Below, in pieces: positions 14,796 through 22,416 of a stretch of DNA of 41,601 nucleotides (its first letter is position 1; every line of letters begins with the position of its first letter). This stretch comes from an uncultured Chloroflexales bacterium. GTDB taxonomy: Bacteria; Chloroflexota; Chloroflexia; Chloroflexales; Chloroflexaceae. A program made the translations under genes and the position numbers. The DNA is taken from the NCBI GenBank assembly GCA_937918935.1, contig CAKZSI010000064.1, positions 1 through 41,601 of the forward strand, written 5' to 3'. Below the pieces are notes generated by a model. It was not told where the DNA came from. It saw only the letters and a program-made list of their open reading frames with translations, and ran no database searches.

Positions 14796-16019
14796 ATGAA
14801 GATCCTGCACCTTGCCGATCTGCACATTGGCGTCGAGAACTACGGGCGCCTCGATCCGGGCAGCGGGCTGCACAGCCGCCTGGTGGATTACCTTGAGCGC
14901 CTGGACGAGGCGCTGGATCTCGGCCTGCGGGCCGGGGTCGATCTGGTCCTCATCGCCGGGGACATCTATAAGAATCGCTCGCCCAACTCCACGCACCAGC
15001 GCGAGTTCGCGCGCCGGGTGCAACGCCTGCGGGAGGCGGGGGTGGCGGTGTTTATCCTGACCGGCAACCACGACATCTCGCCAGCGGCGGGCCGGGCCCA
15101 CTCGGTGGAGATCTTTCGCGCCCTGGAGGTCGAGGGCGTGACCATCGCCGACCGCCCGCGGCTCTACGAGGTGCCCACCCGCGCCGGCCCGGCGCGCATC
15201 CTCGCCATCCCCTGGGTCACACGGCAGATGTTGCTGAGCCGCGAGGAGTTGCGGGGAGCCTCGTTTGCCGACATCGAGTACGAGGTGCGCTGGCGCCTGG
15301 AACGCTTCATCGAAGAGCAGGCCCGCAGCTTTGACCCGCAACGGCCGGGCATCATCACCTTTCATGGCAGCCTCGACGGGGCGCAGGTCGGCGCCGAACG
15401 GGTGATGACCCTGGGCCAGGACCTGGTGTTGCCGCGGTCGCTGTTCATCCACCCCGGAGTGGCCTACGTGGCCCTCGGCCATATCCACCGCCACCAGGCG
15501 CTGCACCACGACCCGCCGATGGTGTACCCCGGCAGTCTGGAGCGGGTGGATTTCGGCGAGCGCGACGAGCCGAAGGGTTGCGTGCTGGTGGAGATCACCA
15601 ACGGCAAGGCGCGCTGGACCTTCCATCCGCTGCGGGCGCGCCCGTTCGTGAGCATTGAAGAGGATCTGCGCCGCAGCAGTGACCCGGCCGGGGCCCTTGC
15701 CGCGCTGATCGCGCGCCAGGACCTGCGCGGAGCGGTGGCGCGGGTGGAAGTGCGGATTACCCGCGAGCAGGCCGACGTGCTGCGGTCGGAGGAGATCCGC
15801 CGCCTGCTCGATGACGCCGGAGCCTTCGTGGTCGCCGGGGTCGTGTTTCACGTGGAACGCAGTGGCCGCCGGCGCTTCGGCGCCGCCGAAGCCGAGTTGC
15901 TCGACGGCCTCACCCCCCGGCGCGCGCTGGAACTCTACCTGCGCGCCAAACAGCCGCCCCTCAGCCCGGAACGCATCGCCGCCCTGCTGGCCGCCGCCGA
16001 TGAGCTTATGGGCGGATGA
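14796..16019 (+). CDS. SbcD/Mre11-like DNA repair metallo-nuclease
   Basis: Calcineurin-like phosphoesterase of the SbcD/Mre11 group, which processes DNA ends and hairpins with an SbcC/Rad50 ATPase. The 407-residue product shows all five metal-site motifs in order: DLHIG (8-12), GDIY (55-58), GNHD (90-93), the FHGSLDGA His near 195, and GHIHRH near 230. A C-terminal capping region follows. ATG at 14796 gives the canonical start MKILHLADLHIG, with no good Shine-Dalgarno. No sbcC gene lies next to it, which is unusual for this family. A small antitoxin-like gene follows after 68 bases. Length and motifs fit SbcD rather than a generic phosphoesterase. Confidence 0.85.
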   Translation: MKILHLADLHIGVENYGRLDPGSGLHSRLVDYLERLDEALDLGLRAGVDLVLIAGDIYKNRSPNSTHQREFARRVQRLREAGVAVFILTGNHDISPAAGRAHSVEIFRALEVEGVTIADRPRLYEVPTRAGPARILAIPWVTRQMLLSREELRGASFADIEYEVRWRLERFIEEQARSFDPQRPGIITFHGSLDGAQVGAERVMTLGQDLVLPRSLFIHPGVAYVALGHIHRHQALHHDPPMVYPGSLERVDFGERDEPKGCVLVEITNGKARWTFHPLRARPFVSIEEDLRRSSDPAGALAALIARQDLRGAVARVEVRITREQADVLRSEEIRRLLDDAGAFVVAGVVFHVERSGRRRFGAAEAELLDGLTPRRALELYLRAKQPPLSPERIAALLAAADELMGG

Positions 16020-16087
16020 TCGGCGCGTGCGCCACGAAGCACCAGCATCGCGCCTGTGCTATCGAGAAGCCTTGCTATGCCTGGCAT

Positions 16088-16342
16088 ATGATCACCCTCG
16101 ACCTCAGATACCAGCAGACAACGCTCGAAGAACTCTTGCGCGCAGCGCGTTCAGAGGCGGTCTTGATCGTCACCGAAGAGGGCCGCCGCTATATCCTCGA
16201 AGCGGCAGACGACTTTGACCGCGAGGTGGCCGCGCTCGGGAGCAGCCGGGAATTTATGGACCTTCTGGCGGAACGGCGGCAGGAGCCAGGACGAATAGCG
16301 CTCGAAGAGGTCGAACGGCGGCTCAAGCCGCTCGAAGGGTAA
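16088..16342 (+). CDS. small Phd/YefM-like (antitoxin-like) protein
   Basis: An 84-residue acidic, helix-rich protein. The N-terminus (TTLEELLRAARSEAVLIVTEEGRRYIL) looks like the beta-strand DNA-binding start of Phd/YefM-type antitoxins. The C-terminus (SREFMDLLAERRQEPGRIALEEVERRL) resembles their toxin-binding helices. The ATG at 16088 is preferred to an upstream in-frame start because the added residues are Cys/His-rich and unlike the family. No recognisable toxin is encoded beside it: the following 268 bases contain no credible frame, only a 25-codon ORF at 16537-16614. It may be an orphan antitoxin relative or a standalone small regulator. The family link is weak, by pattern only. Confidence 0.55.
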   Translation: MITLDLRYQQTTLEELLRAARSEAVLIVTEEGRRYILEAADDFDREVAALGSSREFMDLLAERRQEPGRIALEEVERRLKPLEG

Positions 16343-16610
16343 TAGCGCGCGCATCATCGCGTTGTGCTCCACGTCCGGCGCCTGGCCCCACGGTTGCCGT
16401 CCAGCGTAGTAGGGAGCGGCGCCAGGCGGAAAGCTGTCCGTCGATCTGCCGCAGGCGGCAATCAGGGGGACGAGCGGCGGTGGAACGTCGCGGCAAGGCG
16501 CCAGACGGATGTCCGGCTAATCGAACGGGATCGGCTATGATCGCCGGACCGGAGGGCATCATCGTAGACTTCTACCGGCGGGTTGGTCTGCATCAGCCAG
16601 AAGCGGCGTC

Positions 16611-17525
16611 TTAGCACTCCATCCGAACTTCCAGTTCCTGCAAACATCCTGCCAGACCACGCCGCTCCGCAGTCACCTCAAACACACGCGCCCCGGCGCT
16701 CACCAGGGCAGCGATCAGCCCCGGTGCGGCCTCGGGGCCTGCTGCGACCCGCAGGGCGCCCTGGCCCGCCGGAATGGCGTCGTAACCGAAGTGGGCCGCC
16801 ACCGCCGCGACGATCGGCAGGGGTTCGGCGGTGATCAGCAGCGCATCCTCGCCGCGAAGGAGCGCCTCGATCGGGCCATGCGCCACCAGATGGCCCTCTC
16901 GGAGCAGCGCGACGTGCGTGCACAGGCGCTCCACTTCCTCCACCCGCTCGCTGGCGAGCACCAGGGTCAACCCTTCCCCGTGCAGGCGCCTGAGCACGCG
17001 ATGCAAGTCTGCAACCCCGGCGGGGTCCAGGTCAACGGTCGGTTCATCAAGGAAGATCAGGCGCGGTTGGTGGAGCAGGGCGGCGGCCACGGCCAGGCGC
17101 CGGCGCTCGGCGTCGGAAGCCTCGCCGGCGCGCACCGCGGCGCGCGCCTCCAGATCCACCCGGCGCAGCGTCGCGTCCACCGGGGCCCACGCGCTCTGCC
17201 CGTTGAGCATGGCCAGGAGGCGCAGATTGGCGCGCAACGACAGGCCGCCAGCCAGAGGCGGGGCCGCTGCGACCACGCCCGTGAGCGCGCGAATGGCCCC
17301 CCGCTCGCGCCGCAGATCGTGGCCGAAGATCGCGCCGCTCCCGCTGCTGGGACGCGCACGGCCCGCCAGCAGCCTGATCAGCGTGCTCTTGCCAGCCCCG
17401 GGCGGACCAAGCAACCCCAACAGCGCCCTTGAGGGAACTGCCAGACTTACACCGGCAACACTGCGGCGCGTTCCATCGTATCTGGTCAGCCTGTTGGTCT
17501 CGATAGCCAGCGACGTCGCAGGCAT
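16611..17525 (-). CDS. orphan ABC transporter ATPase with altered catalytic motifs
   Basis: A 304-residue ABC ATPase domain protein with a C-terminal extension of about 90 residues, laid out like the ATPases of ABC-2 (drug/polysaccharide) exporters. Walker A GPPGAGKST (40-48) and Walker B LIFLDEPTVDLDP (156-168) are intact and an A-loop Tyr is at 16. However, the Q-loop Gln is replaced (GVVAAAPPL near 83-91), the signature LSGGQ reads ASDAE (136-140), and the H-loop His is replaced by Glu (LASERVEEVE, residue 193). No permease gene is adjacent on either side. ATG at 17523-17525 chosen because the ABC fold starts right after. It could be a regulatory or degenerating ATPase. Confidence 0.82.
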   Translation of the reverse strand: MPATSLAIETNRLTRYDGTRRSVAGVSLAVPSRALLGLLGPPGAGKSTLIRLLAGRARPSSGSGAIFGHDLRRERGAIRALTGVVAAAPPLAGGLSLRANLRLLAMLNGQSAWAPVDATLRRVDLEARAAVRAGEASDAERRRLAVAAALLHQPRLIFLDEPTVDLDPAGVADLHRVLRRLHGEGLTLVLASERVEEVERLCTHVALLREGHLVAHGPIEALLRGEDALLITAEPLPIVAAVAAHFGYDAIPAGQGALRVAAGPEAAPGLIAALVSAGARVFEVTAERRGLAGCLQELEVRMEC

Positions 17526-17930
17526 GACGCCGATTCCTGTTGAACAGAGTGCAAGCACATCATCGTCAGATCGCCCTGGAAAGCCAGACACAGCAATCCA
17601 AAATCCACACGAATCCTACCAGGAGTGTAGCGCGCGGCAGGCCCCCGCGCGTCGGCGTACAGCGCGATGGGGAGGCGCCGATCGCGCCGTAGGGGCGTCG
17701 TACCAGAGGCGGAGCGGGGATGACCGTAGTGGGCATTGTTGCGGATACGGATGCTTCGACTTGACCGGTGTACCTGACTCCGACATAGCCGGTTTGTGGA
17801 GGTGTGTAGAGGTGTGGAGCTATGGATGGAGCGGAACGGTCAAGCTGGAGGAAGCCCCTGTTCCGCAACACACCTCAGCCATCGTTCCACACGTGCAGGA
17901 TAATCAGGTCTTCACCTCCACACCTCCACG
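17526..17930. other. spacer between the ABC ATPase and the class V PLP enzyme
   Basis: No gene is seen in these 405 bases. A perfect 11-bp inverted repeat, GTGGAGGTGTG at 17796-17806 and CACACCTCCAC at 17919-17929, brackets about 110 bases. A second partial copy (AGGTGTGGA) lies directly beside the left arm. The right arm touches the aminotransferase stop. Confidence 0.45.
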
Positions 17931-20372
<2,442 letters not shown>

Positions 20373-20619: not shown

Positions 20620-22416
20620 GTGAAGGCGACGACAGCAAGGAATCTTGCGCCTCAAGTTGGAACAGGTGTGGATCGCTGGCGCATGATCGGCGGTGAGCGC
20701 TTCTACACCGTGGCCCGCTGGTTAACGGTGGCCCTGCTCGCGGCAGTGACAGGTCTGCTCACTGGTGCGCCATTATGGCCGCTCACTACCGACAGCCCGC
20801 CGCTGCTTACGGTGCTGTGGGTCTACACGGGCTTCAGCCTGCTCACCACGCTGGCGCTATTCCTCCCTGCGGCCAGCCACCTGCTCGGCCTGGCCTATAT
20901 CGTTGATTTGTCGTTCATCGCCTTGATGACCTTCTTCGGCGGTGAAGAGACGGTCATCTTTTTTCCGCTCTACCTGGTCCCGCTGATCAATGCGGCGCTC
21001 CGCCATCCACCGGTGGCAAGCCTGTTCTCCGGCCTGTTCGCCGCGCTGCTGTACGTGCTCGCGTTCCTGGGCTGGCGTCTGATCATTGCCACTGAGAGCG
21101 CGATCCCTATCAATATGCTCGATAGCGTCGGCCTGGGCCTGCGCGCCCTCACCCTGGTCTACGTGCCGCTGCTGACCAGCGGCCTTGCCGAGCGCTGGAG
21201 CGAGAACAACCGCGCCAGTGTGGTGCAGGCGCGCCAGCAGGCTGAACAGGCCCTGGCCGAGGCACGCGCCTACCGCGACCAGATGCGCTCGCTCTACGAA
21301 GTGGCCTATACGCTCTCCACGACGGTTGATTACCGCCAGGTGCTGGAGACCACCCTGCGCGAGAGTCGCAAACTGGTGCCCTTTTCGACCGGCTTCGTGC
21401 TGCTGGCCTCGGGCCAACCTGATGAACTCTATGTTGCCGCCAGCCAATCGCTCGCTCCCGCCGATCAGTCGCGGCGCGTCACGGTGAGTAGCGGATTGTT
21501 CGCGGCGCTGCGCAGCAGCGAGGCGCGGATGGTGCCTGATGTGGCGCGCGAGCCTGATTTGCAGAGCTTCGAGAGCCTGCGCCATTGCACTCGCGCCTGT
21601 CTCATCCCGCTGCGCGCAGGTATGCACACCTACGGCCTGCTGGTCGTGGCCAGCGACGTCCCCAACGCCTTCACCGGCGAACAGGTCGCCAACCTGACCG
21701 CCCTCGCCAATTACGCGATTATGGCGCTGCACAACGCCCAGTTGATCTTTGATCTGAAAGAAGAGCGCAACAAGCTGATTTCCAAGGAGGAGCAGGTGCG
21801 CCACCAGCTCGCCCGCGATCTCCACGATGGCCCTGCCCAGGCCCTGGCGGCGATCACTATGAACGTGGAGTTTATCAAGCGCCTGCTGGAGCGTGATCCC
21901 GATCGCGTGGTGGAAGAGCTTGACAAGCTCAGCAGCCTGGCCAAGCGCACCACCTACGAGGTGCGCACCATGCTCTTCGAGTTGCGCCCGCTCGTGCTGG
22001 AGAGCCAGGGCCTCCGCGCGACCCTCGAGCAGTATCTGGAGCGTTTCAAAAATGGCGCCAACGAACCGCGTATCCTCCTCGAGGCTGGTGATCTGAACGA
22101 TGTGCGTCTGGGGAGCAAGGCCGAAGGCACTTTGTTCAACATCATCCAGGAAGCGATCAACAACGCACTGAAGCACGCCCGCGCCGCGCACATCTGGGTG
22201 CGCCTTAGTCGCGAAGGGGATCACCTGGTGACAGTGGTACAGGACGATGGCGCCGGCTTTGATATGCAGAGCGTATTGCGCTCCTACGAGAAGCGCGGCT
22301 CCTTTGGCCTGCTGAACATTGATGAACGCGCGCGCCTGGTCGGCGGGCACGCCGAGATCGCCTCAAGCCCGGGCAATGGCACGACGGTCAAGGTGATCGT
22401 GCCGATCGAGTCGTGA
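20620..22416 (+). CDS. membrane sensor histidine kinase, NarL-partner (HisKA_3) type, with GAF domain
   Basis: A 598-residue sensor kinase. Six hydrophobic segments lie within about residues 30-190, with almost no periplasmic loops. A short coiled coil (QARQQAEQALAEARAYRDQMRSL region) follows at about 195-225, then a GAF-like domain (about 235-375), the HisKA_3 dimerisation helix with phospho-His H402 in RDLHDGPAQ, and an HATPase domain (EAINNALKHA, DDGAGFD, GSFGLLNIDERA, GNGTTVKV). It starts with GTG at 20620, preceded by AGGAG. Its stop overlaps the ksgA start by 4 bases (GTGA). No NarL/LuxR-type response regulator is encoded in the window, so its partner is elsewhere. The signal is unknown. 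Confidence 0.9.
   Translation: MKATTARNLAPQVGTGVDRWRMIGGERFYTVARWLTVALLAAVTGLLTGAPLWPLTTDSPPLLTVLWVYTGFSLLTTLALFLPAASHLLGLAYIVDLSFIALMTFFGGEETVIFFPLYLVPLINAALRHPPVASLFSGLFAALLYVLAFLGWRLIIATESAIPINMLDSVGLGLRALTLVYVPLLTSGLAERWSENNRASVVQARQQAEQALAEARAYRDQMRSLYEVAYTLSTTVDYRQVLETTLRESRKLVPFSTGFVLLASGQPDELYVAASQSLAPADQSRRVTVSSGLFAALRSSEARMVPDVAREPDLQSFESLRHCTRACLIPLRAGMHTYGLLVVASDVPNAFTGEQVANLTALANYAIMALHNAQLIFDLKEERNKLISKEEQVRHQLARDLHDGPAQALAAITMNVEFIKRLLERDPDRVVEELDKLSSLAKRTTYEVRTMLFELRPLVLESQGLRATLEQYLERFKNGANEPRILLEAGDLNDVRLGSKAEGTLFNIIQEAINNALKHARAAHIWVRLSREGDHLVTVVQDDGAGFDMQSVLRSYEKRGSFGLLNIDERARLVGGHAEIASSPGNGTTVKVIVPIES

Follow-up and report, generated by a model that had tools for sequence, protein, structure and literature searches.

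What can an ABC ATPase still do when its Walker motifs are intact, its signature and switch histidine are altered and no permease gene stands next to it? We addressed this question for a gene in a 41,601-nucleotide stretch of DNA from an uncultured Chloroflexales bacterium (contig CAKZSI010000064.1, positions 1 to 41,601; hereafter the window). A sequence-only reading of the gene had proposed that its product binds ATP without normal turnover, that it is the degenerate half of a heterodimer, or that it acts as a regulator rather than a transporter.

Motifs and predicted structure of the ATPase

The gene occupies positions 16611-17525 on the minus strand (304 codons plus stop), as delimited by its open reading frame; the ATG is at 17525 and the stop codon at 16611-16613. 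An alternative GTG at 17591 would lengthen the protein by 22 residues. The plus strand of 16611-17525 does not encode the ATPase. Pfam ABC_tran matched the product with 79.3 bits (cut-off 25), and Walker A together with a Walker B carrying the catalytic glutamate is present in 6/6 of the copies described below, as expected for the ABC superfamily. The best NCBIfam match was TIGR01188, the DrrA family, at 155.7 bits, short of the curated cut-off of 312.45 for that family. An AlphaFold model built with 22 aligned sequences (mean pLDDT 90.7, pTM 0.79) predicts an ABC-type nucleotide-binding domain (NBD) followed by a small C-terminal domain of alpha/beta type. The C-terminal domain is taken as residues 226-290 (16656-16850; this and the following coordinates are on the minus strand).

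In an alignment with 16 intact relatives, Walker A (GPPGAGKST, residues 40-48; 17382-17408) and Walker B with LDEP (residues 156-162; 17040-17060) read as the sequence-only reading had claimed. The alignment also bears out the replacement of LSGGQ by ASDAE at the signature position (ASDAERR, residues 136-142; 17100-17120) and of the switch histidine by glutamate (residue 193; 16947-16949), where the window's ATPase has SER and its intact relatives have SH. The claim of a lost Q-loop glutamine has to be amended: residue 87 (17265-17267) is indeed alanine, but the ancestral residue was glutamate, found in 16/16 intact relatives, and not glutamine. Lantibiotic-immunity ATPases have such an 'E-loop'. 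Beyond the changes listed in that reading, the FYPYLSG segment that follows the Q-loop is lost in the clade, its site corresponding to residues 92-97 (17235-17252). The Q-loop engages an intracellular loop of the transmembrane domains, according to extracts of a published account (PMC7756269), and we infer from the alignment that residues Y92-G97 once contacted a permease.

No permease gene adjoins the ATPase gene within the window, just as the earlier reading had it. Upstream lies a class V aminotransferase gene (17931-19178, minus strand), which also precedes the ATPase gene in G001, G002 and G003, three genomes of the same genus; it is taken here as a neighbour only. A 108-codon open reading frame at 16016-16342 overlaps the end of an SbcD-like gene and has no Pfam or NCBIfam match.

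The altered motifs are shared by a clade

A search of 158 genomes of the class at a cut-off of E 1e-46, below which more diverged degenerate copies could fall, gave six degenerate copies: five from the window's genus (the window's genome, G000, and G001-G004) and one from another genus (G016). The other four copies of the genus are 88, 84, 76 and 59% identical to the window's ATPase, and that of G016 is 46% identical. In the order G000, G003, G002, G004, G001 and G016, the signature reads ASDAE, ASDAE, AANAE, ASCAD, VTRGE and LTPGA, and the residue at the histidine position is E, E, Q, Q, R and P. Orthologues with a normal Q-loop, LSGGQ and histidine, which would have pointed to local decay, numbered 0/6 in this clade. 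The sequence-only reading had asked whether its three changes are conserved: those in the signature and at the histidine are found in 6/6 copies, whereas the glutamate at residue 87 is lost in 5/6, G016 retaining it. The altered motifs mark a clade rather than local decay.

The pattern of loss and retention within the clade suggests more than chance, since Y136, M140 and Q142 of the signature and the switch residue H193 are changed in 6/6 copies while the Walker A core (G40, G43, G45, K46 and T48, that is, the glycines, the lysine and the second threonine) and LDEP are kept in 6/6. Among 82 positions conserved at no fewer than 94% of letters in the 16 intact rows, 37 are retained across all six degenerate copies, and 14 are absent from every one of them: N42, L56, A84, Y92, Y94, G97, Y136, M140, Q142, N164, H193, E292, L296 and T299. 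The last three belong to the C-terminal motif LEExFLxLT of the intact relatives and are lost in 6/6. The signature and switch histidine expected of a catalytically competent ABC ATPase are likewise lost in 6/6. The A-loop aromatic, read from the alignment by eye, is F or Y in all 15 intact rows with a residue at this position and D, D, D, E, Y and R in the six. The proposal that the protein binds ATP without normal turnover would fit these residues, and is slightly weakened by the loss of the A-loop aromatic in 5/6 copies.

Descent from an operon of exporter and two-component genes

In a tree of 41 ABC ATPases, the six copies group together (100/100) beside the intact ATPases of G017 and G011, and then that of G037; a rebuilt tree supported the six-member clade at 100/99. 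With G016 left out, the remaining five continue to cluster with G017 and G011 (93/90). With the five left out, G016 is drawn at the root, next to G017 and G011 in an open fork, so that its own placement is weak; its branch is long. A long-branch artefact was considered for G016 and is countered by the common promoter block and the kinase tree described below.

The gene order in G017, G011 and G037 is ATPase, ABC-2 type permease, HisKA_3 kinase and response regulator, and the permease of G017 has matches at 45% in G011 and 40% in G037. G044 and G053 have the order kinase, regulator, ATPase, permease, and the contig of G027 begins within the permease gene and continues with kinase and regulator. 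The degenerate ATPase gene of G001 and G016 leads straight into the kinase and regulator genes, without a permease gene in between, and in G016 a metallophosphatase gene comes after these three. A kinase orthologue is present in 6/6 genomes, the families of kinase and regulator being assigned by Pfam (HisKA_3 and NarL/LuxR-type). The two-component module is contiguous with the ATPase gene in G001 and G016; in G000, G002, G003 and G004, the ATPase gene is on one contig and the genes for kinase, regulator and metallophosphatase form a group on another, these kinases being 75-77% identical to that of G001. No permease gene was found at the ATPase and kinase loci of the six genomes. An adjacent permease in relatives, which the earlier reading would have counted against itself, is thus present in the intact sister group and absent beside the ATPase in all six, and its presence beside the sister ATPases shows the origin of the window's gene. 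Comparison of these loci shows that the window's ATPase descends from the ATPase of an exporter operon with an ABC-2 permease, a HisKA_3 kinase and a NarL/LuxR-type regulator.

Kinases with no such ATPase or permease recognised nearby occur in G014, G015, G026 (on a contig of 3.8 kb) and G065, and the kinase of G015 also has no recognised regulator next to it. A tree of the kinases unites the genus, G016, G014/G032 and G015/G026 in a single clade (100/100), which stands next to G011 and contains an open fork. A single loss of the permease in the ancestor of that kinase clade would be the simplest history.

Some further features of these loci are recorded here. The unit of kinase, regulator and metallophosphatase (L087:5124-8942 and L038:5612-9090) is found in G000, G002, G003, G004, G016 and G014, and the N-terminus of its metallophosphatase resembles, by eye, an export signal with a lipobox. 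Beside the unit, on the opposite strand, lie genes for a PF16949 membrane protein and for another ABC ATPase, whose signature reads YSHGMRQ (L085:1285-4517); both occur in G000, G002, G003 and G004 and are a possible other partner. The window itself encodes, at 20620-22416 and after malate dehydrogenase, a sensor kinase containing GAF and HisKA_3 domains, which is not an orthologue of the operon's kinase.

The ancestral promoter layout is retained

A block of 96 bases upstream of the ATPase gene (17622-17717, minus strand) is shared by the six genomes and recurs in a less similar form in G032. When anchored on GTACGA, the alignment of the six is gap-free with 38 identical columns, and the distance from GTACGA to TA[CG]ACT is always 74 bases; such identity was reached by 0/10,000 simple shuffles for four pairs, a comparison that ignores relatedness and anchoring. 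The -10-like hexamer of the window is TACACT (17624-17629, minus strand), with no consensus -35, and a consensus scan of 16300-18000 found no consensus sigma-70 promoter.

In G017 and G037, whose operons are intact, a palindrome, CTCCGnCTYAAGnCGGAG (16/18 bases), stands at the same promoter place. Its first base lies 85 bases from the -10-like hexamer in G037 and in 5/6 degenerate copies, and 86 bases in G017. The left half of the palindrome is retained in 5/6 copies, in the window as part of an operator-like 18-mer (17697-17714, minus strand), and the right half is replaced by a different sequence common to the six; in G001 the left half is altered and the distance to the hexamer unchanged. 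The palindrome, its place and the content of the operon lead us to infer that it is the site of the response regulator. The degenerate ATPase gene keeps the ancestral promoter layout.

Neither element served to define a regulon. With up to three mismatches, the 18-base operator has matches in 9/9 genomes, not above a reversed-pattern control, and the idea of a shared regulon was rejected; with at most one mismatch, it occurs only at the ATPase promoter, in G000, G002, G003 and G004. The palindrome with at most one mismatch occurs in 9/10 genomes in numbers like those of the control, and was rejected as a regulon mark as well. Free of mismatches, it has a single copy in each of G017 and G037, upstream of the intact ABC gene. 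In G011, where the promoter of the ABC gene falls outside the contig, a perfect palindrome of the form CTCCGnCTYnAGnCGGAG lies at L114:209-226, in an intergenic position on a contig unlinked to the ABC gene, and could be a second target. G027 has two single-mismatch sites, one of them near a contig end and possibly in the promoter of its ABC gene. A short box common to the ATPase and kinase promoters was dropped as too short for meaning.

The leader (17526-17621 in the window) varies in length, GTACGA and the ATG being 178, 208 and 229 bases apart in G000, G003 and G002 and 112 and 109 in G004 and G001. The leader of G002 contains a GATTTTGGATT repeat, and an insertion in the leader may have moved the start. 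Rfam recognised only a tRNA in the window and no known RNA in the ATPase leader.

A C-terminal domain without its ATPase domain

We searched 41 genomes of the family for the C-terminal domain (threshold 1e-3) and found it in nine, namely the six, G017, G011 and G032. In G032 (contig of 4.0 kb; genome contamination 7%), the NBD is gone and the C-terminal domain lies directly upstream of kinase and regulator. This remnant (L105:1573-1743) is 58% identical to the window's domain over 57 residues, and its reading frame runs without a stop from 1453 into the kinase. The promoter block of G032 shares 49-57 of 96 bases with the six, and in it GTATGA precedes TACACT by exactly 74 bases; block and domain together span L105:1398-1743, ahead of kinase and regulator. 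G014, of the same genus, has no C-terminal remnant, and the dN/dS of the G032 stretch against the others is about 0.34-0.66 over 57 codons, which is not low (window versus G016, about 0.5). In the light of these two results, the stretch may be either a relic or a working small domain.

Selection on the gene and the case for decay

The ATPase gene is, by its substitution pattern, evidently under purifying selection, with a whole-gene dN/dS of 0.258-0.360 (ten pairs, five species). This is about twice the value of the intact paralogue (0.124-0.149, six pairs); the kinase gave 0.113-0.227 (six pairs, four close species) and the aminotransferase 0.150-0.202 (three pairs within the genus). All six ATPase copies are open at pairwise dS values of up to 1.2 within the genus, and a neutral simulation with substitutions only left the frame free of stops in 18/1000 runs at 0.3 changes per site and in 0/1000 at 0.5.

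The constraint is unevenly spread over the two domains. Pooled dN/dS is 0.367 for the NBD and 0.175 for the C-terminal domain, the most constrained part of the protein within the genus (ratio 2.10, bootstrap 1.26-3.96). The corresponding values of the intact paralogue are 0.110 and 0.241 (ratio 0.46, bootstrap 0.22-1.01). On these figures, constraint has shifted away from the ATPase domain and towards the C-terminal domain, the opposite of what the paralogue displays. The shift leans on G001, since the four close species alone give a ratio of 1.93 (0.98-4.47), and against G016 the NBD and the C-terminal domain are equally identical (0.46 and 0.45).

These values bear on slow decay, in which the gene lost its role with the permease and erodes stepwise, catalytic motifs first, leaving the G032 stretch as a relic. 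Such erosion is consistent with the raised dN/dS (0.26-0.36 versus 0.12-0.15 in the intact paralogue), with replacements at the signature and the histidine that vary among species, with the several genera in which the kinase has no ATPase beside it, and with the absence of the remnant in G014. It is opposed by open frames that neutral simulation rarely produced, by a P-loop and LDEP retained in 6/6 copies, by a retained promoter block and by a constraint that is rearranged instead of evenly relaxed. We regard slow decay, the chief rival of the regulatory reading given below, as doubtful. That the gene is maintained and no longer encodes a transporter ATPase is well supported.

The case for a partner or a new chemistry

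The sequence-only reading had also suggested the degenerate half of a heterodimeric exporter, which would pair with an intact ATPase, for example the paralogue on contig C29, and with the permease of that ATPase. The retained Walker A and B suit this arrangement, as does the ABC-2 type permease match adjacent to the paralogue in G000, G002, G003 and G016; mixed sites of this kind are common among known exporters, at least in extracts of the account cited above (PMC7756269). However, when the permease of the sister group was searched for in the six genomes, there was no match in G001 and G004, and those in G000, G002, G003 (genome 84% complete) and G016 were weak (E 3e-8 to 3e-4) and all beside the paralogous ABC gene; a cognate permease was not found in the six, and one of unrelated sequence is possible. 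The ATPase gene never adjoins a permease gene in these genomes, and the parts lost in 6/6 copies include the post-Q-loop segment (Y92, Y94 and G97) and the C-terminal motif (E292, L296 and T299). Known mixed pairs usually distribute their changes in such a way that one composite site remains canonical, whereas here signature and histidine are both lost in one subunit. The heterodimer is therefore disfavoured, and we hold it to be unlikely. An active ATPase of unusual chemistry, working by itself or in a homodimer whose signature and switch residues are altered, could draw on the P-loop and catalytic glutamate of 6/6 copies and the D-loop aspartate of 4/6, but is most improbable given the variety of residues in place of the histidine (E, E, Q, Q, R, P), unexpected for a new active site.

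A probable regulatory role for the remaining protein

The explanation that we favour, with some reserve, is that the ATPase of an exporter/two-component operon lost its permease and its catalysis and persists as a regulatory protein by way of its C-terminal domain. On the branch to the genus and G016, the permease has disappeared, and the ATPase has lost its signature, switch histidine, E-loop (in 5/6), post-Q-loop segment and LEExFLxLT but has kept P-loop and Walker B. The protein likely still binds a nucleotide but would no longer run the ATP-sandwich cycle, and would act through the C-terminal domain in a regulatory or scaffolding capacity. Its most plausible target would be the kinase/regulator pair, in a feedback such as LnrLMN exerts in damping LnrJK; by this analogy, it is possible that the ATPase feeds back on this kinase. 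If the ancestral transporter fed back likewise, a lineage without transport could still profit from the feedback. Retained feedback would explain why permease contacts, signature and histidine were lost and why the C-terminal domain, the promoter and, mostly, the P-loop were kept.

The earlier proposal of a regulator rather than a transporter is favoured, short of proof, by the descent from an operon with kinase and regulator genes, by the promoter that the gene has kept, by the displaced constraint and by the G032 locus, where only the C-terminal domain is left. Against it stand the 4/5 genomes of the genus in which ATPase and kinase are on different contigs and the kinase is beside another ABC ATPase and a membrane protein, as well as the kinases of G014, G015, G026 and G065 with no such ATPase recognised nearby and the absence of the remnant in G014. 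The feedback model leaves both the separation in four genomes and the genera with the kinase alone unaccounted for. A narrower form of the regulatory reading, in which the operon was reduced to regulation, the non-hydrolysing ATPase serves, through its C-terminal domain, as a feedback protein of the two-component system that formerly governed the transporter, and G032 kept that domain alone, is accordingly put forward only tentatively.

If the regulatory reading is true, the relatives display stages in the change of a drug-export transporter into a signalling protein: the complete operon (G017, G011 and G037), an operon with the permease gone and the ATPase worn (G001 and G016), an ATPase separated from the two-component genes (G000, G002, G003 and G004) and nothing but the C-terminal domain ahead of the kinase (G032). 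Selection could then act independently on the regulatory role of these transporters, which in B. subtilis is known as feedback inhibition. The clade would also offer a natural test of why P-loop and Walker B persist without hydrolysis and permease coupling, and 'ABC transporter ATP-binding protein' would be a misleading name for its members.

Comparison with known systems

The degenerate sites of heterodimeric ABC exporters likewise have an altered signature and H-loop, and ATP binding persists in the known cases covered by extracts of PMC7756269. Those exporters have a canonical partner and transmembrane domains, whereas here the part that would be expected to face a permease is altered. The best full-length fold matches, extending over ATPase and C-terminal domains, were TM_1403 (4yer, E 7.1e-27) and NosF (7osf, 4.5e-23; 7o0y, 2.1e-22); identity to these is 24-28%, and NosF belongs to a transporter complex. 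Among the matches listed from open-licence PubMed Central literature, there was no comparable case.

DrrA-type drug exporter ATPases (TIGR01188) and BcrA-like ATPases are a further point of comparison. DrrA has a C-terminal motif like LDEVFL, as given in extracts of PMC3533511, and the intact relatives carry such a motif in the form LEExFLxLT. In contrast, the window's ATPase falls below the TIGR01188 cut-off and has lost signature, histidine and C-terminal motif.

The ancestral operon resembles LnrLMN/LnrJK of B. subtilis (linearmycin, polyenes) in having an ATPase, a permease, a sensor kinase and a response regulator. There, according to extracts of PMC7472640, the transporter is reported to damp signalling, its deletion having raised the response 6-fold and 36-fold with two inducers, and the lnrLMN operon is reported as the sole target of LnrK. 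Here, by contrast, the permease is absent and the ATPase degenerate, and the likeness between the two systems is one of gene content.
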